A program made the position numbers and the translations under genes. DNA of 64,000 nt from Rhizobium sp. 007 (GTDB lineage: Bacteria > Pseudomonadota > Alphaproteobacteria > Rhizobiales > Rhizobiaceae), in contig NZ_CP064187.1 in NCBI RefSeq assembly GCF_015353075.1, forward strand, positions 248,001-312,000, read 5' to 3'. Positions 27,879 through 45,772 of this stretch are shown piece by piece (the first letter of the stretch is position 1; every line of letters begins with the position of its first letter). A model generated the notes under the pieces. It worked only from the letters and a program-made list of their open reading frames with translations. It was not told the origin of the DNA and did no database searches.

Positions 27879-27954
27879 GCCCAGATAGCTCAGTTGGTAG
27901 AGCAGCGGATTGAAAATCCGCGTGTCGCTGGTTCGATTCCGGCTCTGGGCACCA
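27879..27954 (+). tRNA. tRNA-Phe (anticodon GAA), island insertion target
   Basis: A 76-base cloverleaf with CCA. The acceptor GCCCAGA pairs with TCTGGGC. The D-arm is TAGCTCAGTTGGTAGAGC, the anticodon arm GGATTGAAAATCC has GAA, and the T-arm is GGTTCGATTCC. The gene is intact because the island restored its 3' half. Confidence 0.98.
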
Positions 27955-27979
27955 TAAAAATCCAACGAATTCAATTGGA
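27905..27979. repeat. attL: 75-bp attachment-site repeat
   Basis: This copy spans the 3' half of tRNA-Phe from the anticodon stem plus 25 bp downstream (through CAATTGGA). It is identical, base for base, to 45698-45772, and sequence diverges immediately beyond on both sides. Confidence 0.97.
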
Positions 27980-28052: not shown

Positions 28053-29291
28053 CTAACCCAGTAAATTCGCTAGTCTTTCAGACCTTTGCTGCCTGCGCTT
28101 GTCCGACTCTTCGTCAACGAACAAGTGCCCATACAAATCGTAGGTAATCTTAATGTCCGAGTGCCCCATTTCACTTTGGACCTCTTTGGGATTGGCGTTG
28201 TCCGCTATGAGCATCGAGGCATGGAAGTGGCGGAGGAGATGGAAATTATAGAGCGGCTCCACAAGGGGTTTGCCGTCGTCGTCCCTCTGGATATCGCCAT
28301 TCCTATCGAGGAGGGGGTTGGTTAGGCCGAGGCTGATTTGCAGTGGCTTCCATGCTCGATTGTAGATGTTGGGAAGGCTCATAGGTTCGCCAGACTTGGT
28401 GGCGAAGACGAGCGCATGCCCTCCGGCCTCAAGCTTCCACTGCTTGAGCATTTGCAGGAGGCTGGCTGGAACTGGAATGCTTCTATAGCCCGCGTCAGAC
28501 TTTGTGACTTCTGCCACATCGCCGTTTTCATCGGCTCTTTGCCTTACATGGATTTTTCCTGCGTCGAAATCGACCGCCGCCCATGGCAGGCCTCGAACTT
28601 CAGACGCTCGCATGCCGGTATGGATCGCCGTGGCGATGATGGCCCGATACCGCCTCCATGCCTTAGCTCTTTGGACGTTCGGCTGAGCGCCGAGGGTGTC
28701 GAGTTCGGCCAGGATCAGGCGGATATGCTCCAAGGCTGGAACCTTTGCCTTTGTGATATCGCGCTTGTCCTTGCCTATGGAAACTTCACGGGCGACGTTT
28801 ACCGCGACCTTCTGTTGCGTCACCGCCTCGTTCAGGAGGCCTTTCAGCGAGGTCATGACCTTCCTTGCCAGGGAGCGGCTATGGCCCGCTAGGAGCTTCG
28901 CCTTGAAGTCGAGGATAACGGCCTGCGTTAGATCGCAGAGCTTCAGGTGGCCCAAGGGCGGCACGATATAGAGGTCTTTATGGTAGTTGTACTGACGGAG
29001 GGTCGAAGCTTCGGCGGGGCCCCTTTCTCCCCGGCCAACGGTCACAGCCGTAATCCAGATATCAGCCATATCCGATACCGTGATGGACTGGCTATCGGGC
29101 ACATGCGTCTTTTCCCGAACGCCTTTGACATTATCCTCCCACCAAGCTGTTGCCTCCCTTTTTGTGGGAAAGTTCTTGTGGCGACGACGCATTTTCTTCG
29201 TCTCGGGGTCATAGGCGAAATAATCGACTTCCCATGCTTCGCGCGGTTCGCCTTTTGACGTGATCCATTTCCTTTTGTGAACTTTGGACAT
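28053..29291 (-). CDS. int: Tyrosine-recombinase integrase
   Basis: An approximately 412-residue phage-type integrase. It has an arm-binding N-terminal domain, a core-binding SAM-like domain (~65-165), and a catalytic domain with Arg in HTGMRASEVRGL, the HxxR box FHLLRHFHAS, His in MGHSDIKITYD, and the nucleophile Tyr in the following helix. It ends 73 bp from attL and reads toward it, the classical position for tRNA-targeted islands. The ATG at 29291 (MSKVHKRKW) gives a family-like start; ATG at 29309 is an alternative. The catalytic residues look intact, so excision may still be possible. Confidence 0.93.
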   Translation of the reverse strand: MSKVHKRKWITSKGEPREAWEVDYFAYDPETKKMRRRHKNFPTKREATAWWEDNVKGVREKTHVPDSQSITVSDMADIWITAVTVGRGERGPAEASTLRQYNYHKDLYIVPPLGHLKLCDLTQAVILDFKAKLLAGHSRSLARKVMTSLKGLLNEAVTQQKVAVNVAREVSIGKDKRDITKAKVPALEHIRLILAELDTLGAQPNVQRAKAWRRYRAIIATAIHTGMRASEVRGLPWAAVDFDAGKIHVRQRADENGDVAEVTKSDAGYRSIPVPASLLQMLKQWKLEAGGHALVFATKSGEPMSLPNIYNRAWKPLQISLGLTNPLLDRNGDIQRDDDGKPLVEPLYNFHLLRHFHASMLIADNANPKEVQSEMGHSDIKITYDLYGHLFVDEESDKRRQQRSERLANLLG

Positions 29292-29894
29292 GGTTTCAGC
29301 GCTCCCCATCAATCAATTTTAAGAGCTTTGTTCCGTCTTCGAGACGGACGCACCGCACCGTATACATCCTCGTATCCTCCATTCCTTCGTGTGGCATGGA
29401 TTATATCCGGGGGATATCCGCTTGTCGCTGATTATTTAGCTCTATCTAAAATAATGGGGTGCCTTGGGACCCTCGGACCTTGACTGCTTGCGGGGCGGGT
29501 CGCTCCTTCGGTCGCTGCGCTCCGGCCCCCTATGGGGGCCTCGCTTGCTCAACGCTAGCCCGCCCGCTCGCCGTCAACCCCTGCGGGGTACGGTCCTACC
29601 CAAGAGCACCCCCAAGTCTCGGCGCGCGGCGACATCCGATTGGTTCAAATGAACCGCCGAAACTCAATCCAAATGACGCATGGTGTCTGCACTGAGTGCA
29701 AACTTGTAACCATGATTCAGAGCGGCGATCAATTCATCCCACATGAAAAACCAGCAAATTATGGGTATACCACTAAAACGATATATTCATACCACATGCA
29801 AACCCATGGTTGCAATCGATTCGAAAAGGCGCATACTGAACCTAATAACAAAACCGCAAGAAGTGAGTGCTCAAACAAAGAAAGGCAATGCCAA
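29292..29894. other. Non-coding stretch upstream of integrase
   Basis: Contains the divergent control region between the integrase and the replication module. It includes GGATATCC-type palindromes around 29408-29420, the structured element at 29463-29604, and an AT-rich part (29640-29890) with short frames but no supported gene. An open frame runs from ~29670 into the next gene, but its N-terminal part has no ribosome site. Confidence 0.5.
29463..29604 (+). ncRNA. Structured element A (candidate RNA or cis element)
   Basis: A 142-bp block closed by CTTGGGACC at the start and GGTCCTACCCAAG at the end, with a nested TTGAC / GTCAA pair and internal GC-rich hairpins (CCTTCGGTCGCTGCGC; GGCCCCCTATGGGGGCC). 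A diverged copy lies at 32600-32739 in the opposite orientation with the same length and closing stems. Whether it is transcribed is unknown. Confidence 0.45.
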
Positions 29895-30152: not shown

Positions 30153-30220
30153 AACCCAACCGTTGCCTGCCCCACCGCGAATGGTGTGGTTAGTAAGCCT
30201 TAACTTACGGAGAACCCCAA

Positions 30221-30445: not shown

Positions 30446-30449
30446 CGGC

Positions 30450-30614: not shown

Positions 30615-30640
30615 CGCAATAGCAATCCGGAGAACCGACC

Positions 30641-30961: not shown

Positions 30962-31053
30962 CCGCACCAATGCCGCGCCCACAAGCGCGGCGGAGGGGCG
31001 GGAACAAAAGCGAGGCAAGGCAAGGGGCGATCCCGCCCAAAAGCAATGTCGAA

Positions 31054-31248: not shown

Positions 31249-31277
31249 GCCAACCACCTGAGCAAGAGACCGGCGAC

Positions 31278-32441
31278 ATGGCTAATAGCACAAACCCTCA
31301 TGAAAAACAGCCTCAGAAGGCCACCACGCGAATTCGAGGCAATGGCCGGTCTATGACATCATCCGACGCCTCGAACGCGGGTCAGCGGGCAACGTCGGGC
31401 CGCGAGCGATTTACATTCGAATGGTTTAACGATTTCGAGGATGAGAGCCTGATCAAGGAATGGCTCATAGACGATGCATTTGGCAAGGGCGAGTTCACGA
31501 CCATCTACGGAAAACCCGGAGCAGGTAAGTCAGTCATCGTGACCGATATGGCCTGCCATGTGGCGGCTGGCATGCCTTGGCATGGCAAGGGAGTGAAGCA
31601 GGGCTTCGTGGTCTACGTCGCCGCTGAGAGGAAGGATTTGACCAAGCGGCGCATGCGCGCTTTTCAGATACACCATGACCTGAAGGGTTTCGTGCCGCTC
31701 GCCGTCGTCGGCGGTCGAAAGATCAATCTGTTAGACAGCAAAGTTGCCGAGCAACTGGCAACCGAGATTAACGAGGCCGCGAGCGAGAAGGGTCTGACCC
31801 CTGCTTGGATCATCATCGACACGCTGAGCCGCACCTTCGGCGGCGGCAACCAGAACGACAGCCAGGATATGGCAAAATTCATACAATCCTGCGACCAAAT
31901 CACCCACGCGGTGACCGGCAGCCCGCACGTCACGGTCATCCACCATACCGGCCAAGCAGACGGCAGCCGGGGCAAGGGCGCGATTGATCTTGACGCTTCT
32001 GTGGACGCGAGTTTTCTGGTCAAGCAGTTGGGCAACAACTGTTTCGAGGTGGAATGCGACGGTTCCAACGATCTGGCAGAAATGAAAGTGCGCTTTGCAC
32101 TTGAGAGCGTGGTGATCACGACGGACAAGCAGGGGAAGGACGTTCCGGCTCCTGTGGTTGTTCCCATGGAGGGCGACGACGCGACCGGCGATAAACAGGA
32201 ACTGACCAAATCCGAAGACAGCGCCCTGAATATCCTTCATCGCCAGATCGAACAGCGCGACGGCGAATGCTCCGAACAAAAGTGGCGGCAGGCTTGCTAT
32301 ACGGAATGGAAGGCAGGGGAGGTGCCGCCGCCGACATTTGAAGCCCAAAAGAAGCGTTTCGACCGAGCCAAGAAGGGGCTTGACGGAAAGGGACAATTGA
32401 CGCTTCGCGATGGCATGTACGTCTTGGCGAAGAATGCCTGA
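31278..32441 (+). CDS. RepA-like hexameric helicase/AAA-25 ATPase
   Basis: A 387-residue RecA-fold ATPase. Walker A GKPGAGKS is at residues 78-85, VVYVAAERKDLTKRR follows, Walker B WIIID is at 177-181, and the sensor HVTVIHHTGQ comes after it. This matches RepA/DnaB-like replicative helicases found in phage, satellites and IncQ-type plasmids. A C-terminal winged-helix-like tail binds DNA in relatives. The hexamer cluster at 32461-32571 directly downstream looks like its origin. It probably drives replication of the excised island, with host primase/polymerase supplied. Confidence 0.82.
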   Translation: MANSTNPHEKQPQKATTRIRGNGRSMTSSDASNAGQRATSGRERFTFEWFNDFEDESLIKEWLIDDAFGKGEFTTIYGKPGAGKSVIVTDMACHVAAGMPWHGKGVKQGFVVYVAAERKDLTKRRMRAFQIHHDLKGFVPLAVVGGRKINLLDSKVAEQLATEINEAASEKGLTPAWIIIDTLSRTFGGGNQNDSQDMAKFIQSCDQITHAVTGSPHVTVIHHTGQADGSRGKGAIDLDASVDASFLVKQLGNNCFEVECDGSNDLAEMKVRFALESVVITTDKQGKDVPAPVVVPMEGDDATGDKQELTKSEDSALNILHRQIEQRDGECSEQKWRQACYTEWKAGEVPPPTFEAQKKRFDRAKKGLDGKGQLTLRDGMYVLAKNA

Positions 32442-32460
32442 TTTCCAGTCTTTTCCGGCA

Positions 32461-32571
32461 GGGACAGCTACAGGGACATAGGGACACATCTATAGATGTG
32501 TGTCCCTAATGTCCCTTTCAGTATGCTCAGGTACAAAAGAGACAATGTCCCTAGTTTGTCCCCGATGTCCC
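32461..32571. other. Iteron-like cluster, candidate replication origin
   Basis: Eight copies of GGGACA or its complement TGTCCC occur in 111 bp: GGGACA at 32461, 32473 and 32481, then TGTCCC at 32501, 32510, 32546, 32557 and 32566. The change in orientation centres on the perfect palindrome ACACATCTATAGATGTGT (32484-32501), and the inner copies build a long hairpin (32473-32515). It starts 20 bp after the RepA-like stop. The hairpin could instead or also be that gene's terminator. Confidence 0.5.
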
Positions 32572-32599
32572 GCCACCAAAACAAAGGCCGAGCGACGAT

Positions 32600-32739
32600 C
32601 TTGGGGAGGTCCGTACCGCAGGTTGACGGCTCCGAGGAGGGGCATAAGCTTAGCGGAGCCAGCCGACCGTTAGGGCGGCGGCGCAGCGACCGAAGGGAAG
32701 CGCCCTGTGAAGGGCAGTCAAGGACCGAAGGGTCCCAAG
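32600..32739 (-). ncRNA. Structured element B, inverted relative of element A
   Basis: Read on the minus strand it starts CTTGGGACCC, continues GGTCCTTGACTGC and CTTCGGTCGCTGCGC, then GCCGTCAACC, and ends TACGGACCTCCCCAAG. The same ordered blocks appear in element A with different sequence between them. The closing stem and the TTGAC/GTCAA pair are kept. The two copies flank the replication module in opposite orientations. Confidence 0.45.
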
Positions 32740-33019
32740 CCGGCGCGAATACAGAGAAGGCACACAAGTATAGGTTGCAGTAGTTCCAGATCGCGAAAAG
32801 TGTGAGAACGGCTATATGCCCCCCTGTGGTGTGATCGAGGCGACCCACCCCGGCCTTGGTAAAAATGAAGCTTGGGATGCCCCGGAAAATGGCTCCCAAA
32901 AAAAGACCGTGGGCATGTGTGCCTAATGATTTCAACCCTCTGACCATTTGACGCCGACGTACCGCCGAGGGCGGTCGTGATAGGCTAGGAGGGTGTGGGT
33001 GTCGAATAGCTATCGATCA

Positions 33020-33160
33020 GCGGATAGCCGATCTGCGAGTCGAATTCTAAGTTATTGTTTTATGGCCGTTCTTTGGAGCATGTAGCATCCATTTGGCAAG
33101 AGCTACAGCTTGATTTTACTCCTGCCCTTGGGTTTCCAACGTACATCAGGGGGATTTCAG
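33020..33160 (+). repeat. Degenerate att-like block 1
   Basis: Begins GCGGAT...ATCTGCGAGTC and carries the paired 9-mers CATGTAGCA (33079) and CATTTGGCA (33090) at an 11-bp period, then a CCAACGTACAT segment. A diverged copy with the same spacing (core to 9-mers 59 bp) is at 34935-35060, on the far side of the cyclase gene. Confidence 0.5.
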
Positions 33161-33418
33161 GTTCATTCATCAGGGCGGCAAACACTTGAAACATATAGCA
33201 CCAGAAGATAATCGCGTCAGAGTCTCGGGGGTGCGGTATCACACCGCTGCGTCGTGCTCTTCGAGGCCGGCCGAGAGAGAGTGCGCTAGGCTCAAGGTGT
33301 GGTCTTGGCAACGAACCGTCTCGGCTTCGTCGTCCCCGGAACTGTGCGTGATTCGGTCGCAGGAGCCGATTCGTGCTACACTGCGGGCCAGCCGACCTGG
33401 CCACCTGTGTTCGAGAAT

Positions 33419-34801
33419 ATGACCAAAGTAACCGCTTTACCCGACGGAGTGGATTTCGACGTGGCCGCTGATGAGACCTTGCTTGAGGCGGCTCTCAGAT
33501 CGGGTGTGCCATTTGCCCACGCATGTGGCGGCCGGGCGAAATGCTCGACATGCCGCGTTTGGGTTCTCGATGGCCTGGAGGCTTGCCCGGGCCGAAATCC
33601 GGATGAAACCTTGATGGCGGACCGGTTGAGATTGACGGATGAGGTTCGGCTGGCCTGTCAGCTTAGGCCGGAAGGCGAGCTTCGCGTCCGACGCCTGGTG
33701 TTGGACGAAACCGATATGATAATGACCAGCCAACTTTGCAGTTCTGCTGGGACGCGTTCTGGCGAGTCAAAGCGTGTTGCAGTCTTCTTTAGCGATATCG
33801 CCGATTTCACGGCGCTGTCGGAGCGCCTTTCGCCCTATGACGTTATGTATCTGCTGAACCGCTACTTCGCCCAGGTCGGTGACATTATCGAGCAGAATGG
33901 CGGTTTCATCGACAAAATTCTCGGCGATGGGCTCATGGCAATATTCGGCGTCGACGACCAGCCTGACGCTCCAATCCGCTCCGTGAACGCCGCGCTTCAG
34001 ACCCTTGCCACAGTTGATCGTTTGAAGCCGTTCTTTGCCTCGATGTATGGCATCAGTTTCGATATTCGTATTGGCCTCAACTATGGCGAAGCCGTCATCG
34101 GCACATTGGGTTTTGCTGGACACGAACGTCTCACGGTAATCGGCGACGTGGTGAATCTGGCCAGCCGGATCGAGGCCGCCAACAAAGATGCCGGTACGCG
34201 GCTGCTAATATCCGAGGCTCTCCGCGACCAGATCGCCGACCAGGTGGAAGTCGCGGACTTCGTCAGGGTACGCCTTCGCGGTACCGGCGAGCGCACAAGC
34301 CTGTTCGAAATCATCAGGCTGAAGCCCGAAATCGACGCCAAGCTGAATGCCAAAGGGCCTCGCGAAACCATCCGTCACGGCGGCAGGAACTGGGTTCGCG
34401 CTTTTGCCGAAGACGAGCTGCAGCCCCACGAACGCCGGATTCTCGATTTTGAAGATTACGATATCGTCGTCGTTCGCGGATCCGACAGCTATTGCGCCTT
34501 CAACAATGCCTGCCCGCATCTTCATCTGCCGCTCTTCGAACGCCGAAGTTCCGCTCAGGTCGAAAAGCTGAAGCTCCCACACATGGAGAGCACGATCACC
34601 GGAGATCTTGGCTTGGTCTGCCGCTGGCATCAGAGTTGTTTCGACCTGTTTACTGGCGAAATCAGGCAGTGGGCGCAGTTGCAGCAGGATGGTACTGCGC
34701 CGGGCTATGAACAGTCGGGTGACATTTCGAAAAACCGCGAAAAGCTGATCGTATACCCCTGCCGAACGCAGGACGGCTTTGTGTGGATCGGGCTCGAGTG
34801 A
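33419..34801 (+). CDS. Ferredoxin-adenylate/guanylate cyclase-Rieske fusion protein
   Basis: A 460-residue three-domain protein. Residues 1-95 are a plant-type 2Fe-2S ferredoxin (Cys36, Cys42, Cys45, Cys80). Residues ~118-300 are a class III cyclase: metal-binding Asp126 in FFSDIADF and Asp170 in KILGDGLMAIFG, with NLASR (Asn246, Arg250) for the transition state; Lys166 suggests ATP as substrate. Residues ~325-460 are Rieske-like, with Cys365-His367 and Cys401-His404. Cyclic nucleotide output gated by two iron-sulfur clusters is implied. The start at 33419 begins the ferredoxin domain; GTG at 33299 would add 40 odd residues. The gene is more GC-rich than its flanks and is bracketed by att-like blocks, so it is probably a captured host-type gene. 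Confidence 0.85.
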   Translation: MTKVTALPDGVDFDVAADETLLEAALRSGVPFAHACGGRAKCSTCRVWVLDGLEACPGRNPDETLMADRLRLTDEVRLACQLRPEGELRVRRLVLDETDMIMTSQLCSSAGTRSGESKRVAVFFSDIADFTALSERLSPYDVMYLLNRYFAQVGDIIEQNGGFIDKILGDGLMAIFGVDDQPDAPIRSVNAALQTLATVDRLKPFFASMYGISFDIRIGLNYGEAVIGTLGFAGHERLTVIGDVVNLASRIEAANKDAGTRLLISEALRDQIADQVEVADFVRVRLRGTGERTSLFEIIRLKPEIDAKLNAKGPRETIRHGGRNWVRAFAEDELQPHERRILDFEDYDIVVVRGSDSYCAFNNACPHLHLPLFERRSSAQVEKLKLPHMESTITGDLGLVCRWHQSCFDLFTGEIRQWAQLQQDGTAPGYEQSGDISKNREKLIVYPCRTQDGFVWIGLE

Positions 34802-34934
34802 AGACGACGGTCCGATATTCCAGTTTTTTCCGTCGCGATCCGGTTCAAAGAGCCTTCAACAGAATTTTTGGGGAGGACCTGCGTTGATGGGCATGTGTCA
34901 GGCACGGTTCCCGCGCGGGCTACGGCCTAGACAA

Positions 34935-35060
34935 GCGGATTACCTATCTGCGAGTCACGACTTAAGTGGTTGTTTCAGAAAAGACATTTCTGGCATGTGA
35001 CACTCATGTGGCAATTTTCAACCCTTATTTCGCCGGTCTCCAACCCACATGGTGCAGTCC
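34935..35060 (+). repeat. Degenerate att-like block 2
   Basis: Starts GCGGATTACCTATCTGCGAGTC, then CATGTGACA (34994) and CATGTGGCA (35005) at an 11-bp period, and later TCCAACCCACAT. It matches block 1 in order and spacing. The GCGGATT...ATCTGCG start resembles the anticodon stem of the island's own att core, but it is not a functional tRNA. Confidence 0.5.
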
Positions 35061-35268
35061 AGTCGCTAACACGATAAATCTTGATACTCAGGTCCACGGT
35101 TCCGGCTTGCAGTTCTGCTCGTGCCAGATTTATTCGGGAGCGATAGGCTTCGGCTTCATCTTGCTGACTTCCGAGCTAAAATATTTCCAGCGCGCAGGAG
35201 CCTAACCGGTTTCTCAAAACGCTTGAAATCAGGCAGTCCAATGACGTACCCGACCTGTGACATTTGGA

Positions 35269-35474
35269 ATCGGAATTGGAAGATAAGGGTTGTAACGCCT
35301 TGTTTTCAATATAGCGGGTGAGGCGATGCGCTATAACTGTGCTACCATTGCGCACTCTCCGACACGCCAAATTAGCTCAGCACCCACGAGCAAAAATGAC
35401 CTGAAAAATGGCCGCAAAGTTATCTGTCATCGGAATTGGAAGCCTAGGATTGTAAGCACTTGATTTCAAAGCGC
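35269..35474 (+). repeat. Two direct copies of a 46-bp repeat
   Basis: ATCGGAATTGGAAG...TTGTAA...CTTG(T/A)TTTCAA...GCG occurs at 35269-35314 and 35429-35474, 160 bp apart with a few substitutions. The second copy ends 20 bp before the insertion sequence. Origin unknown; they could be target-site relics of earlier insertions. Confidence 0.45.
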
Positions 35475-35512
35475 CGAAAACCGCGTTGTGCTGGTGACCT
35501 GCCACTGAAGTT

Positions 35513-36442
35513 TCATCCAGCGGCGATTAGAGCCCCGGCGGTTTTGAATACGCCAAGTGGCGCGGTGGTAGCAACCGGCGGAAACGCGAAGCTTTCATCT
35601 TGCGCAGCGTTTCCGCCGGTTGCGGCGATGGTCCCGGCATAGCTTGCCGGGGTCTGGTATCCGAGCGATGAATGGGGCCGGAAATGGTTATAATCTTCGG
35701 CCCATTCGGCGATGGCGCTGCGAGCATGGTCGAGGCCGAAGAACAGGCTCTCGTCGAGCAGCTCGTCGCGCATCCGGCCGTTGAAGCTCTCGACATATCC
35801 GTTCTGCATCGGTTTACCCGGCGCGATGTAGTGCCACTCCACCTTGTGATCCTTCGACCAGGCAAGGATGGCATTCGAGGTGAGTTCGGTGCCATTGTCG
35901 GAGACAATCATGTCAGGCTTGCCACGCCGCTCGATCAGCGTTGTCAGTTCGCGGGCAACACGACGGCCGGAGATCGAGGTGTCCGGGATCGCTGCCAGGC
36001 ATTCGCGCGTCACGTCATCGACGACATTGAGAACGCGAAAGCGTCTGCCGCAGGCAAACTGGTCATGCACGAAGTCCAGTGACCAGCGGGCATTGGCCCT
36101 CGCTTCGACCAGGATCGGTGCACGCGTGCCGACAGCACGGCGTCTGGCTTTCCGCTTGCGAACGGATAGCCCTTCCTCGCGATACAGCCGATAGATGCGG
36201 TTGACCCCGGACGGCTCTCCGTCCCGCCGAAGCAGGATGAACAACCGTTTATAACCGAAGCGTCGCCGCTCATTGGCCAACTCGCGTAGCTTTGCTCGCA
36301 ATTCGATCTCCGGCGGTCGGCAGGACCGATAGCGGATCGTCTTGCGGTCGGCGGAGATGATCTGGCAGGCCCGCCGTTCCGAAAGACCCATGACGGCCTT
36401 CAGATGCGTGACGGCTTCACGCTTGGCGGCGGGCCCTACCAT
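35513..36442 (-). CDS. IS3-family transposase OrfB (DDE integrase core)
   Basis: A 309-residue frame carrying the rve integrase core. A helical HTH_21 region comes first ([21 protein letters not shown]). The DDE triad follows: Asp in [10 protein letters not shown], Asp in MIVSDNGTE, and Glu in [13 protein letters not shown]. Production of the full OrfAB transposase should need a -1 shift at the run of seven A residues at the OrfA end (36442-36448). The C-terminal tail repeats a Gly-Gly-Asn segment near the element end. No disabling mutation is visible. Confidence 0.92.
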
Positions 36443-36702
36443 TTTTTTGATAGAAGCTCGCGGAGTGCGGCTGCATCCAGCATCTGCTCCGCCAGCAGCT
36501 TCTTCAGCCTGCCGTTCTTGTCCTCAAGCGCCTTCAGCCGCTTCGCCTCGGAGACCTCCATGCCGCCGTATTTGGCTTTCCAGTTATAAAGCGTCGCTTC
36601 TGAAATTCCGTGCTTCCGGCAAAGGTCGGCCGCCTTCGCGCCAGCTTCCTGCTCCTTCAGCACCGCAATAATCTGCTCTTCCGTAAATCTCTGCTTCTTC
36701 AT
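36436..36702 (-). CDS. IS3-family transposase OrfA (helix-turn-helix)
   Basis: An 88-residue DNA-binding subunit, [21 protein letters not shown], with the [23 protein letters not shown] and a leucine-zipper-like end ([20 protein letters not shown]). It overlaps OrfB by 7 bp, with a slippery A7 run just before its stop. It provides recognition of the inverted repeats. Confidence 0.93.
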
Positions 36703-36842
36703 TCGTCCGTCCTTTAATAGGCCGGAACTCTAATCCATTCTGGAGGAAATTACCCGTGGCAGGTCACTGGATCTGCGCTACTTTTGTGCCTTTCAGAGAT
36801 GCCGGATTGTCTCTATGCGCTTCGGCAGAAATGCGTTTTTGT

Positions 36843-37625
36843 TTACGACATATAGAGCGGGGAGCGATCCCCATTAGCAGATAGCCACCGCCGGTAGCCG
36901 TCGATGGACGGACCGCCGAGGTTAATCGTATACTCCTCCCCGAATATGCAGATGATTGCATAAATCTCGTTCTCATCTGTTACCAGAAGCGAATATTCGT
37001 GCAGGACTTGGTAGACCGATTGATCCTCTGAAAAAATCGCCTCTTCGTCATATATACGTCGGCGACTCATCGGCCAGTTTTCCGGCGAATCTCCACGTCT
37101 AACAAACCGTCGAATGAGTTTCAGCTCTTCGGAAGCTATAATCTGACCTACGGTGATATCCCCTTCCATGGCCTTTTCGATGTAAACTTCCACGCCTATT
37201 TTCGCGATGAAGCGAGCAAGCAAACGGTCGTCGATAGGCATTGACAGTGGAACAAGAAACGTGCCTCGGTTTAAGCCCATCAAAGCTCTTACGAACCGGG
37301 CATCATCCTTTTCATGCCAAGCCCCAACGGATGTTCCTTCATCAGGCGAGGTGCGTAGGGCAATGGGTGCGCCCGCTTGCGCGAAGATTCCGTACTGAAA
37401 TGGGATAATGCCTCGTTTGTTCGCAATGCCTTGACGACTTCGAAGATTTTGGAAATTTATCGAGGACAGAACGGGCTCTTCGATTTTTGATGCGAAATAG
37501 TTATTGCATTTGTCGCAAACTATTCCCCGTTTGAGGATGTGTTCTTTGTTCCCAAGGGATTCGGGAATAATGTGTTCGACACTACGAGATTTGCTCGCAT
37601 CATGCTCGCAAAAGACGCACCACAT
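36843..37625 (-). CDS. HNH-family endonuclease-like protein
   Basis: A 260-residue protein. The first ~50 residues are a zinc-bound HNH-type domain: Cys3-X2-Cys6, then VEHIIPESLGN with the His of the nuclease site, and Cys37-X2-Cys40-Asn41. The remaining ~200 residues (IPFQYGIFAQAGAPIALRTS, then WPMSRRRIYDEEAIFSEDQ) have no recognised domain and may sense or bind a target. Its 5' end overlaps the ASCH gene by 26 bp, so it is translated from the same transcript as ASCH and GNAT-PIN. Nuclease activity is inferred from the motif. Confidence 0.75.
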   Translation of the reverse strand: MWCVFCEHDASKSRSVEHIIPESLGNKEHILKRGIVCDKCNNYFASKIEEPVLSSINFQNLRSRQGIANKRGIIPFQYGIFAQAGAPIALRTSPDEGTSVGAWHEKDDARFVRALMGLNRGTFLVPLSMPIDDRLLARFIAKIGVEVYIEKAMEGDITVGQIIASEELKLIRRFVRRGDSPENWPMSRRRIYDEEAIFSEDQSVYQVLHEYSLLVTDENEIYAIICIFGEEYTINLGGPSIDGYRRWLSANGDRSPLYMS

Positions 37626-38073
37626 TGTTCACTTGTTCCTCTTCAAAATTACTTATCTGAAGGAGGCGTTGGGCCTCCAACGCTGTAATACGGCAAAGCA
37701 CCTGTGGTGGGTGGAAGCCCTTCCTCCAAACTCGCAATTGTTCGATGTCGATCGGTTGGATACGTTGCACCTTTGAGAGCCGGATTCCGATGGCTTCTCG
37801 CGCTCCATCAAAGTAGCGATCAAACTCGTTGCGGCTAATTGCCGTGCGATCGGAATAGGTTTCCCACATGGCGTGGGGAGTACCCCGAAAAATGGTATCG
37901 ATGACCGCGATTCCGACGATCGACGCGACGGGGCGCGTCGCATAAATCCAGAGACGTGCGCCTACCTCTATCGGGGGAATGCGGCGGCGAAGTTCGACTG
38001 TTTTTTTGCCAGCTAAGATGGCCTCTGCAAAAGGCGGCCGGATCGATATGATTGCTTCATTGAATTTTGCCAT
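37600..38073 (-). CDS. ASCH/PUA-like domain protein
   Basis: A 157-residue protein with a classical ASCH domain in its first ~110 residues: ISIRPPFAEAILAGKKTVELRRR, then GARLWIYATRPVASIVGIAVID. ASCH domains bind RNA or modified nucleobases; the E. coli member YqfB hydrolyses N4-acetylcytidine. The start at 38073 (MAKFNEAII) lies 17 bp inside the end of the GNAT-PIN gene, and its 3' end overlaps the HNH gene. Translational coupling of all three is clear from the overlaps; the biochemical role is inference. Confidence 0.8.
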   Translation of the reverse strand: MAKFNEAIISIRPPFAEAILAGKKTVELRRRIPPIEVGARLWIYATRPVASIVGIAVIDTIFRGTPHAMWETYSDRTAISRNEFDRYFDGAREAIGIRLSKVQRIQPIDIEQLRVWRKGFHPPQVLCRITALEAQRLLQISNFEEEQVNNVVRLLRA

Positions 38074-40255
38074 TAGACCACCCGTAAGTGAGAATGGAGT
38101 CGATCTTCTCACTTGAAAGCGAGACAGCGGATACAAGGTTCGTGGGGCCGACCGCATCGAAGCGTTTCAGTGTATCGAACGGCACGGGCGCAGGAAACAC
38201 CATCAGGTTATCGAAAGTCGTCAGCAAAACATTGCCACTTACAGAGAATCCATCGGCATTATCAATGACCAATCGTTTGTCCGATTTGCGATTCAGCTGT
38301 GATTTTGGAACCACAATCGAGTTGACGATTCGAGCAACGGCCACAGCGGCCCCTCTTCCGTTCTTCTTGCCCTTTGACTCATAAAAGATGATCGGAGCGC
38401 CAACGCGCATTTTTTTGGAGGCTTGGGGCGAATTGACATAGCCGCGCAGGGAGAGGAATGCCGCATCGCGGTTGGCGATGAAAGCTAAACTTGGCTGGAC
38501 CGCCGTTCCTAACAACTCGTCGGCGTATGCTCGCGTAATGGGAACGATCACACCCTCTCGACCTGGCCAGACCAATAGCGTCGGGCCAAGGAGGTCTTCC
38601 AAAACAGTCGAACCGATCCGCACCTTTGTCCCCGCGGGGGTCTGGATTTCGATATCGTTGCCGGTTGACGTGATCGGCAAAGTATCCGGCAAAATAAGTC
38701 CCGTTCGCCGGCGCACTTGTTGAACTACGGCAAACCATGTGCTTGCAGAACAGGGCCTGCCAATCGCAATTTTCGAAAAGTTGGGCGAATTTCCATGCCG
38801 CTGAAATCCGCGTGCCATGGCCAGTTTGTTAACAATCGACTGCCCGCCGAGATGAATCAATTCGATTGGGATCGGCGCTTTTCGGCTTGAAGTGCGTATT
38901 AATGTGTTCAGCAGGTGATCCGTGAAGAGCTCGGCGTCATGGTGTTCGTGCCGGACATGCACGATCATGCGTGCGACAGGATCTACCCCTTTGGGGACTT
39001 GAACAACCCCGGCCGCCATGACACGTCCATCACATCGGATTGCTTCGCGTTGGATGAACTCCACTGGCGTATCCGGTTTGGCAAATTCCGAAATGACCGA
39101 AGTAGGTACACCCATTTCAGTGAGGTAGGCTGACAACTCCGCATTATCTATTGGGCCCAGTTCAAACCCATCGCCATGCAAAGCGACCAAGGGCGAGCTA
39201 AGGGGCTCTGGCAAAAGATCTAAAACTTCTTCAACCGTCGCTATATCGATACCAAACGTCGATAGAAGTTCATTACGCGCATTCAGGATGGGACCATCTC
39301 GGGTGATAAATGCCGCAGCGCGCGAAATGGCGGCATGAGCAAGATGCTTTGCGTCGCTCTTGGCCTGCTGTGTGCCGACCCCTTTTGCGTTCCGCTGTAC
39401 GAATACGATGTCGTAGATCTGATCTGCCACTTTGCCCAACGTAGAGGTATCGGGTGTAGGTAGCCTTGGAAGCTGTAGTGCCATCTGAAGAATAGGATCC
39501 GCAGAAGGGGTATTGGAAGTCCTCCGAAGCTCCGAGACAAACTCATCCGCTATTGCAAGACGAATTGTATGACCGAGAGCTTCACCGAACAGGCGGCGCG
39601 CGAACTCTGACTGATCCCGTTGCCTTACGAGATCGAAATACACATTCAAGTCGAACGCGAAAACCGGAACTTCTCCGGGATTGCGATGGCGAATTCCTAG
39701 GTAGGTTTGTGAGCTTGCCTGAGCCGCAGCGAAAGAAAAGAGATTATCTGTATCGAGTTGACGTGAATGCACGATGATCTTGCGTCCACGGGCTTTTCCT
39801 CCGGCTCGTTGAAGCACGGGTTGAAAGCCATTCTTCGTGTAGAAGGCGAGCGCATGCGAAAGATCGGACGCGATGTCCGCTCGGATAGACAGGAAGCCGA
39901 CGCGCTCAAGTTCCGACACCAGGGCTTTAAGGAGAGATGACGCCACTCCCACTTTTCGAAACGCACTGACTACCGCGACCTGCTGTACTTTTGCGTTAGG
40001 GAACACTCCACTGTGAAGAAGATACCCTGCGAAGCTGCGAGATCCACAATCATTTACGACAGCGGCAATCAAGCGGCCACGCCCGATCGCATCCTCAAAA
40101 GCCTTGGCAGGAAGAAATCCAAGGGCATTGTCTTTTTCAGAATCAGCGAGCGTGCGAATTTCTGGCAAAAGCGACGTCAGCGCCGCAGTCTCGCGCTCTA
40201 TGACGACAACGGGTTGTTTCACCCCCAATCCCCAACTCAGCCGCTGTGAATGCAT
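38057..40255 (-). CDS. GNAT acetyltransferase-PIN nuclease-PUA-like multidomain protein
   Basis: A 732-residue protein. Residues ~15-165 are a GNAT acetyltransferase with the acetyl-CoA loop RKVGVASSLLKAL (Arg100-Gly103-Ala105) and a C-terminal DLSHALAFYTKNGFQPV. Residues ~197-340 fit a PIN RNase, with acidic residues Asp202 (FAFDLNVYFDL), Glu238, Asp301 and Asp320 (FITRDGPIL). Residues ~375-510 look like a second, degenerate GNAT fold (GFQRHG). Residues ~615-690 contain a PUA/ASCH-like strand pattern (VGAPIIFYESKGKKNGRG, then AVARIVNS). It heads an overlapping operon with ASCH and HNH genes. RNA modification coupled to cleavage is a plausible but unproven role. Confidence 0.72.
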   Translation of the reverse strand: MHSQRLSWGLGVKQPVVVIERETAALTSLLPEIRTLADSEKDNALGFLPAKAFEDAIGRGRLIAAVVNDCGSRSFAGYLLHSGVFPNAKVQQVAVVSAFRKVGVASSLLKALVSELERVGFLSIRADIASDLSHALAFYTKNGFQPVLQRAGGKARGRKIIVHSRQLDTDNLFSFAAAQASSQTYLGIRHRNPGEVPVFAFDLNVYFDLVRQRDQSEFARRLFGEALGHTIRLAIADEFVSELRRTSNTPSADPILQMALQLPRLPTPDTSTLGKVADQIYDIVFVQRNAKGVGTQQAKSDAKHLAHAAISRAAAFITRDGPILNARNELLSTFGIDIATVEEVLDLLPEPLSSPLVALHGDGFELGPIDNAELSAYLTEMGVPTSVISEFAKPDTPVEFIQREAIRCDGRVMAAGVVQVPKGVDPVARMIVHVRHEHHDAELFTDHLLNTLIRTSSRKAPIPIELIHLGGQSIVNKLAMARGFQRHGNSPNFSKIAIGRPCSASTWFAVVQQVRRRTGLILPDTLPITSTGNDIEIQTPAGTKVRIGSTVLEDLLGPTLLVWPGREGVIVPITRAYADELLGTAVQPSLAFIANRDAAFLSLRGYVNSPQASKKMRVGAPIIFYESKGKKNGRGAAVAVARIVNSIVVPKSQLNRKSDKRLVIDNADGFSVSGNVLLTTFDNLMVFPAPVPFDTLKRFDAVGPTNLVSAVSLSSEKIDSILTYGWSNGKIQ

Positions 40256-40415
40256 CCGAAGCAGCCAGCTGGTAAAGTCCGTTCTAAGAATGCTGCGGCA
40301 ATATTCTGCATATTCTAAATACCCACGAATCAGATCCGCGCGTCGTCCGCGCCCCTATTCAGTTTCACCATAATGGTGCCGAATGGGAAAGGCGCGATTG
40401 GTCGATTGCCGGGCA

Positions 40416-40970
40416 TTATAGTGGCTGTAGATCGAGGATCGACGTCCATCCCCGTACAACATTCTCGATGATGCTTCTCAAAGAGCGTGCTACCCCTTGT
40501 GTTGGAACAATTACTTTCACGCCGAAATCAATGTTGAGCTCCGTATTCTCGATTTCGACGCACTCCGAGATCGCCAATACACGGCCACGTTTTTCGACGT
40601 GAACGATGTGTTTGGCAGTGAGCTCGGCGTGCTTCACCGCATCTGCTACCTCTCCAAGAATTTTAGAATCGTTGGGGCGAGCGGACCCGTCGGCTGTCTT
40701 GGTGCTGTCGGCCAAAAGTTTTCTAGCTTGACCTAGGTTGGCTATTCCCATCGAGGTCATTGCGCCACGCTCGACCGCAACGTCTGTGAAGTGATGAAGG
40801 AGGATTGAAGCGCACATCGCCGTCCGAAGTGTCTCATAGCCCGTTTCGTAGACATGTTGAGCGTCCGCGTCTTTTGCTGATGCGGCCAATTGCTCTTCAA
40901 ATCTGAAGTATTCCCTGACGGTTGATAAAACCACTCGTTCCCAGTGTGTCTTCAGGACAATACTACCCAA
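40416..40970 (-). CDS. Unknown protein between GNAT-PIN and MmeI-like genes
   Basis: A 184-residue, mostly helical protein. An N-terminal helical part (THWERVVLSTVREYFRFEEQ, then YETLRTAMCASILLHHFTDV) is followed by DAVKHAELTAKHI, which may be a DxxKH-like helical motif, and a beta-rich C-terminus. The start is a TTG at 40970 with GGGGGCG upstream. It lies 160 bp before the GNAT-PIN gene and 82 bp after the MmeI-like gene, same strand. I do not recognise a family. Confidence 0.6.
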   Translation of the reverse strand: MGSIVLKTHWERVVLSTVREYFRFEEQLAASAKDADAQHVYETGYETLRTAMCASILLHHFTDVAVERGAMTSMGIANLGQARKLLADSTKTADGSARPNDSKILGEVADAVKHAELTAKHIVHVEKRGRVLAISECVEIENTELNIDFGVKVIVPTQGVARSLRSIIENVVRGWTSILDLQPL

Positions 40971-41052
40971 TGGTCGCCCCCTGAGTGAACAGCTTGGTGA
41001 TATTCGGCAATTTCCCTCGCCACCGGGTGAGACGCATTTAGGAATGGACGCA

Positions 41053-43902
41053 CTAGGCGGCCGACTTTAGGCGCCGCCGGACTTTGGAGACGTCAACCGT
41101 TGTCAGCATCGGCAAGACCATTTTTTCGTAAAGTTCAAACAGGTGCTCTGCCCGTTCACGCTCCGAATTGAAAGGTTCACTGCGATACAATCGATCAACA
41201 GCTATATCCAGTTTTTTGTGGGCTTGGCGAAGGCTCTTGGGCATCGCATCGGGATCGTAAAGTTGAGCTAACGAGCTGTTTGGATATTTAGATCTTGCAT
41301 TAATAACTTCATTTGCAAGTTTTTCGACATTTTCCTTCGCTTTCGGGGCAGCGTGAGGCCAAGGGAAAGTATTGTAAACAATACCGCTTGAGTATTGGAA
41401 ACGACTTTCAAGCCGCCCTCCGATATTCGCGAGCCACGACTTGTGCATCTGTGATGATAGCACTCCGAACATAAACAGCGAAGGCTGCTGAACAATCTTA
41501 AGCTTATTACTAGGTACACTCGGGGGAGTAATCCACCCCAGCGGTACATACTCGCGCTTTTCGGAGCTTACCTCTGGAAAAGCTAAGAAGGGTTCGGTTG
41601 GTATTACGGTTACGTGGAAAGCCGATGGACTATCTGCAAGCATCGTTGCCGATTGCCCCGGCGGCTTAAGCTCACCGTTTTGCCTTCTTTTATGCCTGAT
41701 CTCGCCCTTCCGGTAGCTTCTGACAAGGTCGAGCCGCTTCTTTATCGTCTTTGCTTTTTTTATTGGCATCGCTTTCTCATCATCTGATGGCGCCGATTGA
41801 TCAAGTGTTAACAGCCATCGATGATTGCCATACAAGAATTCTTCTCCTCCAATGTACGGGTGGAGATAATGCGCGGCCTCGGGGCACGCCGCTAGTAATT
41901 CCTGACGCTCCTCTTCGGTGTCACATATCAGGTAACCGCCATCGATTGGCTTGGTACCAATGATTTGCTTTGGCAAACCGTTCAGCGGACGCGACGTTTC
42001 CGAAACGACCCGATGCCGATCATTAAGATCGGACGCGTCGAAAAGATAGGCAGTGAGGGCTTTGTGGTTACTTTCCGTGGGGTCGCCCATAACCGACGGG
42101 TAACTAAACAGCCTTTTTACAGGCGGCTCGTTCGTTGACTTAGCCAGGCCAATGATAACGACGTGTACTCGCGCTGCGCCGCTTGCCTCTGATGTCCAGG
42201 CGAATGTTCTGTGAGCAAAAGAGATTTCAAGCTTAAAACGTTTGAATAGTATGGGCCATAGCTGCGCTACCTGCTCGCCCTGCGTGATCGAATTGGTGGA
42301 AACGAACGCAATGTCGGCACTGCCATTCTGAACGTACTCGCCAGCCTTAATGAACCAAGCGCTTACATAATCCAGCGTCCCACCGCTTCCTCCAAGCTTG
42401 GCTAGGTCGCGTACCTGCTTGCGTTGATGTGAACTCTGGTTTTTGGATCCGATAAAAGGTGGGTTCCCAAGAACGTAGCTGCATTCCAGGGGCGAGATTA
42501 GATTATGCCAATCGGTTTCAAGGGCATCAGCATTCAAAATGCGTGGTGATTTATTCAGCGGTATTCTCGTGAAGGTCTTACCGAACTCGTAGCTAAGCTG
42601 GTTGTTCATAATGTGGTCCATCATCCACATCGCAACCGCTGCAATTCGCGCAGGGAATTCCTCCAACTCGATGCCGTAAAACTGATCTACATCGATCTTC
42701 GAAAGCACAGTGACGTCGAGCTCTAGCTGTCCCTCTGGATAAAGCGCCTGCAAGACTTCGATTTCGATCAATCTAAGCTCACGGTACGCAATAATAAGGA
42801 AGTTGCCGCAGCCGCATGCAGGGTCGAAGAATTTTAGTTTTCCGAGCCTCGACCAGAACTTTTGAAGTTCAGCTGCTCGATTTCGCTTGAGCTCCTTTAT
42901 GCGCTTCAGATCCCTTCTTAGGTCGTCAAGAAATAGAGGCCCGATAAGCTTTAGGATGTTCTTTTCTGATGTATAATGCGCACCAAGCCTTCGACGTTCA
43001 CCGCTAAGCATGACTGATTGGAAAAGAGAACCAAAAATTGCCGGCGATACCTTTTCCCATTTGAACGCGCTCGCGTCCAGCAGCGTCTGACGGATTTTAC
43101 TGTCGAAAGACGGTATCTTGAGTGTTTCCTTGAAAAGCTCACCGTTAATGTAGGGAAACTGCGCAAGTTGCTCATCCAGATTAGAATGACGTTCTTCTTC
43201 CTTGGTGTTTAAGACCTGAAACAGTTCATTAATCTGCCCGCCGAGACCGGTACCGTCTTCATTGGTATTTTCATGAAGCCATGCACGAAATATACCGGTT
43301 TCGAAGATACCTGTCGCGTCGGCAAATAAGCAAAATAACAATCGGACCAGAAATTTCTCAAGATCGTGGCCGCGATATCCCGTTGCTTCGAGTGCATCAT
43401 GAACCGCACCCATAAGGCGCGATGCGGCTATGTTTGCTTCAGGTTGATCCTGATAGCTTTTTTTCTTACCGCCAGCGATGAAGTCGAAAAGCTCAACCTT
43501 TTTTGGGAACTCTTCGAGCTTGAATTTCCATTCGCCCCCTTCGTCAAGGTCATACAATTCGAAACTTTGGAAATCGCTCAAAAGAATGTATCTAGGATAT
43601 TCACTTTCTTTTAGACCAGAAAAATATTCATGGGCTTGCGATTTAGCTTTGGTTAGATTTTTCCCGGCACTTTTTTGTTCTATAAGAAGTACTCCCGGCC
43701 AGAGAAGGTCAATGTAGCCTGACTTCTTATCAAGCTTTTGCACGTGTTGTTCGAAGTTTGCTACTCTTCGACGCTTAATGCCAAAAACTTTGAAAAAATC
43801 ATTGTAAAAGCTGTGGGTTTCGCCTTTTTCGTAGTTAGCGTCTTTCCAGTCTCTTGCAAAGCCTGATGCTCTAACCCGTATCTCATTCCAAGAAAGTCTC
43901 AT
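41053..43902 (-). CDS. MmeI-like single-chain restriction-modification enzyme (type IIL)
   Basis: A 949-residue protein of the MmeI family (MmeI itself is ~919). A PD-(D/E)XK nuclease site Asp65-X9-Glu75-X-Lys77 is seen in YIDLLWPGVLLIEQKSAG. A helical connector covers ~155-345. The adenine methyltransferase has motif I at FFDPACGCGNFLI (360-370) and motif IV NPPF (480-483). A C-terminal target-recognition region carries specificity. One chain cuts and modifies DNA, so no partner gene is needed. Translation is set at ATG 43902 (MRLSWNEIRVRASG); the longer frame to 43971 is rejected. Base use is more AT-rich than the host, consistent with acquisition. The recognised sequence cannot be deduced here. 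Confidence 0.85.
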   Translation of the reverse strand: MRLSWNEIRVRASGFARDWKDANYEKGETHSFYNDFFKVFGIKRRRVANFEQHVQKLDKKSGYIDLLWPGVLLIEQKSAGKNLTKAKSQAHEYFSGLKESEYPRYILLSDFQSFELYDLDEGGEWKFKLEEFPKKVELFDFIAGGKKKSYQDQPEANIAASRLMGAVHDALEATGYRGHDLEKFLVRLLFCLFADATGIFETGIFRAWLHENTNEDGTGLGGQINELFQVLNTKEEERHSNLDEQLAQFPYINGELFKETLKIPSFDSKIRQTLLDASAFKWEKVSPAIFGSLFQSVMLSGERRRLGAHYTSEKNILKLIGPLFLDDLRRDLKRIKELKRNRAAELQKFWSRLGKLKFFDPACGCGNFLIIAYRELRLIEIEVLQALYPEGQLELDVTVLSKIDVDQFYGIELEEFPARIAAVAMWMMDHIMNNQLSYEFGKTFTRIPLNKSPRILNADALETDWHNLISPLECSYVLGNPPFIGSKNQSSHQRKQVRDLAKLGGSGGTLDYVSAWFIKAGEYVQNGSADIAFVSTNSITQGEQVAQLWPILFKRFKLEISFAHRTFAWTSEASGAARVHVVIIGLAKSTNEPPVKRLFSYPSVMGDPTESNHKALTAYLFDASDLNDRHRVVSETSRPLNGLPKQIIGTKPIDGGYLICDTEEERQELLAACPEAAHYLHPYIGGEEFLYGNHRWLLTLDQSAPSDDEKAMPIKKAKTIKKRLDLVRSYRKGEIRHKRRQNGELKPPGQSATMLADSPSAFHVTVIPTEPFLAFPEVSSEKREYVPLGWITPPSVPSNKLKIVQQPSLFMFGVLSSQMHKSWLANIGGRLESRFQYSSGIVYNTFPWPHAAPKAKENVEKLANEVINARSKYPNSSLAQLYDPDAMPKSLRQAHKKLDIAVDRLYRSEPFNSERERAEHLFELYEKMVLPMLTTVDVSKVRRRLKSAA

Positions 43903-44120
43903 GATATAGCCCTGATGCCCTGAAAGTGACGCTAACCTAGGTCGGAAAAGGTGAATTTTTTGGAACTTCAACCAACGATATTTAGCCTTTGATCGAGCGC
44001 TATAGCACGCTTTCGGGGCGCGTAGTTTTGTGATGGTTGAAATATCACAAAATTTGCAATTTGTGACATCCGGGCTCTTCGCTCATTTCGCAAGGTCCGC
44101 AACATCTCGCCTCGATATGC

Positions 44121-44612
44121 GTGCGGCTGATTGCTGCATTCGAGGAACAACGTCACCGCCAGATATGCAAGTTAAGCCCGTCGAGAATATCAGCGAGGGA
44201 ATGGATACTCCGCGTCACCGCTCCGATTGTCGGTGCCTGCGTAGTGATTGCGTGTTGGGCGGGGTACGTGGAGTTGTCGGAAGTCCCACCTTATATTGTG
44301 CCGGGGCCGGAGACCGTCGCTATGGCACTTGTAAACGATTGGTCCATACTGGGACCGGCGCTTTGGGTAACTGCCCAAAACTACATCTGTGGCGCTGCTC
44401 CTCGCTGTGGTGGGAGGGGATGCGCGGCGGTGGTATTGGCACAATCTCGATGGATTGAGACGTTGTTGTCGCCGGTCATGGTAACATTGCAGGTAACGCC
44501 GATCGTCGCGATTGCGCCGCTGATCCTGAGCTACGCGCAGACACCGTGGATTGCGCAGTTGATATGTGCGTTTCTTGTGACGTTCTTCCCAATCATTCTG
44601 AATACGCTGTAA
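44121..44612 (+). pseudogene. Decayed ABC transporter permease (SsuC/TauC-like)
   Basis: Translation gives a recognisable BPD-transporter start (VPPYIVPGPETVAMALVNDW) and membrane segments (VTPIVAIAPLILSY, LICAFLVTFFPIILNTL). In the middle the frame runs through an abnormal Arg/Cys-rich stretch (CGAAPRCGGRGCAAVV) where the conserved helix should be. The protein stops after ~163 residues, about 100 short. The ATP-binding and substrate-binding partners are absent. A remnant. Confidence 0.7.
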
Positions 44613-44721
44613 GGCTTGAAAAGCACTGAACGCCCATCAAGGTGGAAGCGTACCCACCTCTGGGGCTTTGGCTAAGTTCGCCTCCGACCGCTAAAGCCCT
44701 TGGCCCCCAAAAGATGCCCGC

Positions 44722-44979
44722 TTAACTGGCCCTCTTCTTCCTCCCTGTCCCCCTCCTCTTCCCAGTCCGTATCACCGACCGAGTAATTGGCACACCTCCA
44801 AACCCCGTCAGCATTCCCACAACTGGCAACATCGCCACCCACTGTTCTGGCCTAAGTGCCGACGCCAATATATCCCCCTCCAAAGCCTTCGATATGGCTG
44901 CATTCTCGTCCCTCTGACGCGACATCCTATAGTCATGAACATAACCATTCGGAGGGCGTGTCGGCCTAATCCTTGGCAT
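44722..44979 (-). CDS. Small hypothetical protein near attR
   Basis: An 85-residue basic protein: MPRIRPTRPPNGYVHDYRMS, a short hydrophobic segment (QWVAMLPVVGMLTGFGG), and a strongly basic tail. It overlaps the HTH gene upstream by 14 bp. It may be a phage-like accessory protein; function unknown. Confidence 0.45.
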   Translation of the reverse strand: MPRIRPTRPPNGYVHDYRMSRQRDENAAISKALEGDILASALRPEQWVAMLPVVGMLTGFGGVPITRSVIRTGKRRGTGRKKRAS

Positions 44980-45313
44980 CGAACTCCTCCAAAATCTTCA
45001 CGACGTCCTCACGATCAATCTGGTCCGCCAACTGCCTAGCCCTCGCCAAGTGGTCGGGCGTGGGTGGCACCTGCATCCGTGCGGCTCCGCAATACGGGTC
45101 TAATGCATTGCGAGACATGATCCAGTCTTCAATCAGCCCAACAGTTGTAAACCACACCCCGGCTCGGTTCCGAGCGACAGGGAAGCCCTCTTCCAGCCTC
45201 CATCTGGCGAGGGTCTGGCGAGTGACGCCAAAAAACGCAGCGATGCGATCCAGCCCCATCACTATCGGGCTTCCGACCTCCTGCATGCGAGCGTGGTTTA
45301 TTCTGCGTGTCAT
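44966..45313 (-). CDS. Helix-turn-helix protein resembling phage Nu1/terminase small subunit
   Basis: An approximately 115-residue protein with an N-terminal HTH (GLDRIAAFFGVTRQTLARWRLEEG, then FPVARNRAGVWFTTVGLIEDW) as in Nu1-like terminase small subunits and MerR-like regulators. The C-terminal helical part (HLARARQLADQIDREDVVKILE) may mediate oligomers. The ATG at 45313 is preferred; GTG at 45328 is possible. It could mark the island as a phage satellite, or simply be a regulator. Confidence 0.6.
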   Translation of the reverse strand: MTRRINHARMQEVGSPIVMGLDRIAAFFGVTRQTLARWRLEEGFPVARNRAGVWFTTVGLIEDWIMSRNALDPYCGAARMQVPPTPDHLARARQLADQIDREDVVKILEEFDAKD

Positions 45314-45455
45314 AGCTTTGTTAACCACTTACCAAGGGCGTCCGGCACCTTGGACCGGCGGCTTCGACCGGCATAGTGTATTATATTAGATGCTGCGTAA
45401 CTATCCACCAGCAACACAGCCCAGCTGCGAAAAGCCCCTCTTTCGCAGGCACAAG

Positions 45456-45492
45456 AAGCCCCTCGCTAGTTCCAACCTAGTGGGGCTTTTTT
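45456..45492 (+). terminator. Intrinsic terminator near attR
   Basis: AAGCCCCTCGCTAG, loop TTCCAAC, CTAGTGGGGCTT, then TTTTT. No gene of the same direction ends immediately upstream, so it may insulate the island or end an unannotated RNA. Confidence 0.65.
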
Positions 45493-45525
45493 CTATGTGG
45501 GATATAAGGGTTTCATTAGTGACAG

Positions 45526-45545
45526 CATGCGGCACTCATGTGGCA
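45526..45545 (+). promoter_or_regulatory. Paired arm-type integrase site near attR
   Basis: CATGCGGCA (45526) and CATGTGGCA (45537), 11-bp period, mirroring the attL pair. Confidence 0.6.
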
Positions 45546-45697
45546 TGGAGCCAACCGGACTGGTTGGGACACCATTGTAATTGTTGGGATAATTTGCGAC
45601 TGATTGTCAGTCATTCCCACATGCGAAATTAGCGATCAAGTGGATAAAAAGTGTTATGTATCAAATACTTATAGGAAATATGGCCGTGCCATCAAAG

Positions 45698-45772
45698 GCG
45701 GATTGAAAATCCGCGTGTCGCTGGTTCGATTCCGGCTCTGGGCACCATAAAAATCCAACGAATTCAATTGGA
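45698..45772. repeat. attR: 75-bp attachment-site repeat
   Basis: Exact copy of 27905-27979. Only the 3' half of the tRNA is present here (no acceptor 5' strand or D-arm), so it is not a second tRNA gene. Confidence 0.97.

Follow-up and report, generated by a model that had tools for sequence, protein, structure and literature searches.

The closest described relatives of the genes studied here are operons encoding (PIN)-GNAT-EVE proteins, for which Bell et al. (2020; PMC7641849) report, in the part of the text available to us, an ASCH gene in almost all cases, often an AAA_17 ATPase gene, and type I restriction genes as neighbours. Toxin-antitoxin and defence roles were predicted for these operons in the same paper. 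It names Iyer et al. (NAR, gkt573) as having described them earlier, with the proposal that a DNA base is acetylated. The current study concerns three minus-strand genes in a stretch of 64,000 nucleotides (the window) of Rhizobium sp. 007 (contig NZ_CP064187.1, positions 248,001 to 312,000; all positions below are those of the window or, where a locus is named, of that locus). They encode a GNAT-PIN-GNAT-EVE protein (here the big protein), an ASCH protein and an HNH nuclease, and the open reading frame coordinates bore out the overlaps of 17 and 26 bp given in the original prediction. Judged by profile comparison, the trio almost certainly belongs, as a long form, to the (PIN)-GNAT-EVE/ASCH family.

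Like the operons of that family, the trio combines PIN, GNAT and EVE in that order with an ASCH partner and a nearby restriction gene. The domain order followed from a profile of nine canonical PIN-GNAT-EVE proteins, which aligned end to end with residues 199-724 of the big protein (96.8%, E 2.4e-10), and from Pfam counts over 54 members (PIN_3 in 37, PIN in 19 and EVE in 30). A Pfam scan of the window's own big protein returned neither PIN_3 nor PIN, and its PIN domain was recognized by the profile match to the canonical proteins. PADLOC models the pair as PDC-M11 (PDC-M11A and PDC-M11B); the ASCH gene matched PDC-M11B at 1.9e-27, and the big protein was too divergent for a clear match to PDC-M11A, which reached its EVE end at 0.0019. 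In a genome search with PDLC04421, the three strong matches among 36 genomes with any match were taken as canonical loci, and the own genome gave no match at E 0.001.

Because of the description by Bell et al., the profile alignment and the PDC-M11 matches, the core of the system is already known as a prediction, and the long form is, by its sequence, a divergent branch, remotely homologous to the canonical proteins (13-19% identity). The possibility of a wholly undescribed system was rejected, since the core is covered by Bell et al. and by PDC-M11, and the original statement that no named system has this combination fails to that extent. It may stand for the extra N-terminal GNAT and the separate HNH partner, neither of which was found in the available part of Bell et al., where HNH occurs only as an EVE-HNH fusion. 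Type IV EVE-HNH proteins hold reader and nuclease in one protein, unlike the window, where the HNH is a gene of its own. In a literature search the terms 'PDC-M11' and 'GNAT-PIN' were unmatched, and 'PIN-GNAT' and 'GNAT-EVE' were matched only by Bell et al.

Comparisons were made over 25 long loci (the window, L010-L026, L035, L057, L086, L087, L088, L090 and L125) and 26 canonical loci (L056, L060, L075-L084, L091 and L111-L123), giving 50 distinct loci, as the module has the same sequence in L115 and L116. Left out were L027 (cut by a contig end), L085 and L124 (cut off) and L089 (same record as L021); L020 and L025, with shortened big genes, were used for neighbour counts only. L057, from a Prevotella record, is a remote long form with 17-19% identity to other long proteins, L082-L084 represent a short GNAT-EVE form without PIN (349-352 amino acids), and the big gene of L117 is split across two frames. 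Compared with the operons of Bell et al., the long form has an extra N-terminal GNAT, a decayed middle GNAT and an optional HNH gene, and no ATPase gene was found beside it. With an ATPase profile built from four canonical loci, an AAA_17 ATPase gene was found in 18 of the 26 canonical loci and in none of the 25 long loci, the window included.

The longest reading of the big gene begins at ATG 40255 (38057-40255, minus strand, 732 amino acids). As most close homologues are 718-722 amino acids long, with alignments beginning at residue ~11-12, a start at GTG 40222 is suggested, giving a likely extent of 38057..40222 on the minus strand and a protein of 721 amino acids. Profile matches and alignments upheld the domains first read from the sequence, namely a GNAT, a PIN, a degenerate GNAT and a PUA-like end in the big protein, followed by ASCH and HNH in the other two genes. 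The N-terminal GNAT (residues 15-175; 39731..40213, minus strand) has its best matches among RimI/Ard1 acetyltransferases, with which it has the fold and motif A (R100-x-x-G103-x-A105) in common, although here it forms part of a four-domain protein; Tyr139 is also retained. A fold search with a model of the whole big protein returned GNATs only, nearly all over residues 15-175, and was uninformative on the other parts. The PIN nuclease domain (residues ~196-350; 39206..39670, minus strand) carries the tetrad Asp202, Glu238, Asp301 and Asp320, each position being kept in 113 of 113 sequences. The middle GNAT (residues ~360-500; 38756..39178, minus strand) was placed by the order of secondary structure in the model and by alignment to the canonical GNAT, and the protein ends in an EVE/PUA-like domain (residues ~565-732; 38060..38563, minus strand; EVE at E 0.01).

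The acetyl-CoA-loop glycines of the middle GNAT are mostly gone (Gly at position 442 in 22 of 113 sequences and at 445 in 3 of 113), whereas both loop glycines are invariant in nine of nine canonical proteins. By the state of this loop, a yardstick of our own that lies outside any written definition, the GNAT adjoining EVE in the long form departs from the canonical one. Since the GNAT shared with canonical members has decayed while a second GNAT with an intact motif is present, acetylation is likely to be needed by the long-form system. The long form also allows two questions to be told apart that are inseparable in the canonical form: which of the GNATs carries out the reaction, and whether the PIN domain depends on a GNAT.

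The same domains bear on the idea of Iyer et al. for canonical members, as reported in the available part of PMC7641849, by which a GNAT would mark host DNA through base acetylation, the readers would check the mark and the nucleases would cut unmarked DNA. Restriction neighbours and the HNH nuclease of some loci are consistent with such marking, but the nearest relatives of the N-terminal GNAT are protein N-terminal acetyltransferases, the GNAT that has decayed here is the one common to canonical members, and the PIN domain is left unexplained. DNA marking thus appears improbable for this locus.

The ASCH gene (37600..38073, minus strand, 157 amino acids, best start ATG 38073), which accounts for the 17-bp overlap with the big gene, matched Pfam ASCH at 8.3e-7. 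In all 51 readable loci (25 long and 26 canonical) ASCH adjoins the big gene or is fused to it. Fusions to the end of the big protein in L086 (7246-9803, long) and L079 (1234-3150, canonical) suggest that the two proteins touch. It was also observed that a single protein of L078 (9181-10158) is recognized by the ASCH profile as well as by the ATPase profile, and is likely a fusion of these two partners.

The ASCH family profile matched the PDB entries 5GUS, 5GUQ, 5Y6C and 5Y6B at E 3.6e-43 to 4.1e-42 (best 5GUS, 3.6e-43). All four are ZmASCH of Zymomonas mobilis (PDB molecule name 'helix-turn-helix domain-containing protein'), which belongs to the same ASCH subfamily as the window protein and has Tyr47 and Gln127 in common with it. 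According to the available part of its description (PMC5615036), ZmASCH binds nucleic acid and, in vitro and with magnesium, has a weak cutting activity on single-stranded RNA. The ASCH half of the system is now tied to a protein for which a structure and data on RNA cleavage exist. A YqfB-like deacylase was unsupported, YqfB being absent from the PDB profile matches of the window's ASCH family despite a common ASCH fold; E. coli YqfB is reportedly an N4-acetylcytidine amidohydrolase, and its catalytic Thr presumably falls at the position of Glu27, which is invariant in the window's family.

As an alternative to defence, the system could take part in RNA turnover, for housekeeping or under stress, given that ASCH and PUA domains function in RNA metabolism. 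The authors of ZmASCH themselves propose a control of RNA amount (PMC5615036, in the part available). The big protein is, however, rare and patchy, with matches at E 1e-20 in 3 of 397 genomes of the order and 4 of 385 of the class (the own genome included in both), and it lies here on an island, which makes RNA turnover very improbable. Among 36 congeners searched no full-length copy was detected, and three gave GNAT-level matches.

The HNH gene (36843..37625, minus strand, 260 amino acids; 26-bp overlap with the ASCH gene) encodes a zinc nuclease matching Pfam HNH_5 at 2.2e-12. The expectation that the three genes would be found together elsewhere was borne out, most closely in Mesorhizobium hawassense (L010), where the order is the same and both overlaps are equal in length to those of the window. 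In total HNH is present in 10 of the 51 loci, in four arrangements: downstream on the same strand in the window and L010 (long) and in L077 and L091 (canonical); upstream and divergent in L018, L019 and L026 (long), which are closely related Bradyrhizobium loci and not independent; convergent beyond the ATPase in L056 and L060 (canonical); and upstream on the same strand in L057 (long). The count becomes 5 of 46 when the window and L056, L057, L060 and L091 (those found through HNH) are excluded, and 5 of 39 after dropping L012, L016, L086, L117, L120, L123 and L125, which have less than 1 kb of flank on one side. A fixed three-gene system was rejected because HNH is optional, and the view of HNH as its third component had to be given up in that form.

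The absence of HNH from 41 of the 51 loci raises the possibility that it is an unrelated passenger, defence nucleases gathering in islands and the overlap with ASCH being incidental. Of the 30 plasmid records in which a canonical relative was found, only two have an HNH match (L056 and L060, also the two read for neighbours), none of the seven viral-contig copies is paired with the system, and members of the same HNH family lie beside phage replication, type III restriction and Septu-like genes. HNH relatives in viral contigs L105 and L108 adjoin a P2-type GPA replication gene (L108 also Mrr), in L107 the neighbour is a type III restriction enzyme and in L106 an integrase, while the neighbours tested in L104 and L109 gave no match. 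On plasmids, the copies in L058 and L059 lie beside an ATPase pair, for which the PADLOC call in L058, the one tested, was Septu-like PDC-M01.

Other results argue against a passenger. At E 1e-20 the HNH profile had matches in 3 of 367 class genomes, all three within this system (one being the window's own), and an HNH-first plasmid search placed 3 of 8 records in it, against a chance expectation of 8 x 32 / 72,556 records = 0.004, which ignores replicon size and redundancy; five of the eight records cover at least 80% of the protein. The association recurs in all four arrangements, with the 26-bp overlap kept in L010, and HNH identities correlate with those of the big protein (r 0.76 over 7 dereplicated loci, a value reached in 0.16% of permutations). 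A passenger is a real, though lesser, possibility. By its genomic distribution, the HNH is a general nuclease of mobile and defence regions; its preference for this system is clear but incomplete, and it represents a recurrent nuclease partner added to the family. It is one without a confident PADLOC match: the window's own HNH reached PtuB at E 0.0017 only, and those of L018 and L038 matched nothing at 0.001. The HNH of canonical L091, cut by a contig end, has 45-51% identity to those of alphaproteobacterial long loci, but 41, 38 and 33% to canonical L056, L077 and L060, and 33% to long L057, which suggests that HNH genes were exchanged between versions of the system.

Two side observations concern the HNH neighbourhoods. 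The surroundings of the P2-type GPA replication gene in L105 and L108 may be a cargo slot, and in L056 (Rhizobium sp. WSM4643) a DUF262/HNH protein at 4194-5876, with a PADLOC Orf5/HEC-06 match, adjoins the HNH gene.

Taken together, a defence or toxin-antitoxin role is probable for the system. More specifically, it may be an anti-phage module resembling toxin-antitoxin systems, which would shut down translation through an attack on tRNA or other RNA. This proposal is tentative, with a chance slightly below even, and the toxin-antitoxin likeness consists here of gene pairing and overlap only. In its favour are the constant ASCH partner, the retained PIN tetrad and N-terminal GNAT motif, the mobile island, and clear restriction genes as neighbours both here and in L014 and L023. 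In such a module EVE and ASCH would hold RNA, most likely tRNA, the N-terminal GNAT would acetylate the amino group of charged tRNA, or another amine on bound RNA or protein, and PIN would cut the bound RNA while GNAT acetylates. ASCH would bind the big protein and restrain or aim it, and HNH, where present, would add DNA cutting as a second layer. The chances that RNA is the target are about equal either way, and that the HNH cuts DNA is a somewhat weaker supposition.

Several points weigh against the translation-stopping module. RimI-like folds acetylate many amines, and tRNA in particular is for this reason a guess, with a probability clearly below that of RNA in general. According to the available part of Bell et al. 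(PMC7641849), no such module had been characterised. Of the three ZmASCH residues that had been mutated, the window protein retains Tyr47 alone, Lys53 being replaced by Ala and Ser128 by Val. PADLOC runs on 10 other neighbour proteins from nine long loci gave two clear restriction genes (in L014 and L023), two weak candidates of other kinds and nothing for six. HNH is missing from most loci, as counted above, and in viral contigs it is never paired with the system (0 of 7 HNH loci and 0 of 14 readable system loci).

Modification-sensing restriction was also considered, in which modified bases in phage DNA would be recognized by EVE and ASCH, and PIN and HNH would be recruited to cut it, with GNAT marking or tuning the response. 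PIN domains act mostly on RNA, and such a role fits poorly with an HNH encoded by its own, optional gene, which 41 of 51 loci lack. EVE relatives recognize modified bases, as is predicted of ASCH ones (PMC7641849 and PMC11037411, in their available parts), a defence glycosylase active against T-even phages was modelled with a fold of the ASCH type (PMC13160076, likewise in part), and some members of the HNH family adjoin restriction genes (L107 and L108). On balance this explanation is unlikely. Slightly less likely still is a remodelled immune complex, in which the ancestral GNAT decayed to a scaffold and the acetylation, being needed, was re-supplied by fusion of a new amine acetyltransferase, and in which HNH is a swappable DNA-cutting add-on common to distant versions. 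If true, one reader pair (EVE and ASCH) would fire both an RNA attack (PIN and GNAT) and a DNA attack (HNH).

Viral contigs hold 14 canonical loci and one long locus, where a single-sequence scan had picked up a GNAT-level match only. The big gene and the HNH gene were nevertheless rejected as phage genes, as tblastn of both proteins against annotated phages gave no match.

In the window the trio lies on an island of ~17.9 kb in tRNA-Phe (27905-45772), which also holds a hypothetical gene, an MmeI-like enzyme and an IS3-like element. The island is bounded by a 75-bp perfect repeat, with the left copy at 27905..27979 (plus strand; the 3' part of tRNA-Phe 27879-27954 and 25 bp beyond) and the right copy at 45698..45772 (plus strand), and its tyrosine integrase (28053..29312, minus strand; Phage_integrase 4.6e-19) is beside the left repeat. 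All 12 congeners compared have the left flank conserved, with alignments stopping at the tRNA-Phe end. The right flank showed no synteny among the same 12, six of which gave weak scattered matches, so that the right boundary is set by the 75-bp repeat alone. The MmeI-like type IIG restriction enzyme (41053..43971, minus strand) is a separate neighbour with all five MmeI Pfam domains and a PADLOC PDLC03598 match of 1106 bits; together with the integrase and the repeat it agrees with the original placement of the trio beside such a gene in an island. Between it and the trio lies the gene for a hypothetical protein (40416..40970, minus strand) with no Pfam, PADLOC or NCBIfam match, and the IS3-like transposase genes (35513..36702, minus strand; rve/rve_3, HTH_Tnp_1) are just downstream of the HNH gene.

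Two further plus-strand genes were observed in this region. One, at 31278-32441, encodes an AAA_25 ATPase and is perhaps a RepA-like gene of the island. The other, inside the island at 33299-34801, combines 2Fe-2S (Fer2), adenylate/guanylate cyclase and Rieske domains in a single polypeptide, an odd protein to find beside defence genes.

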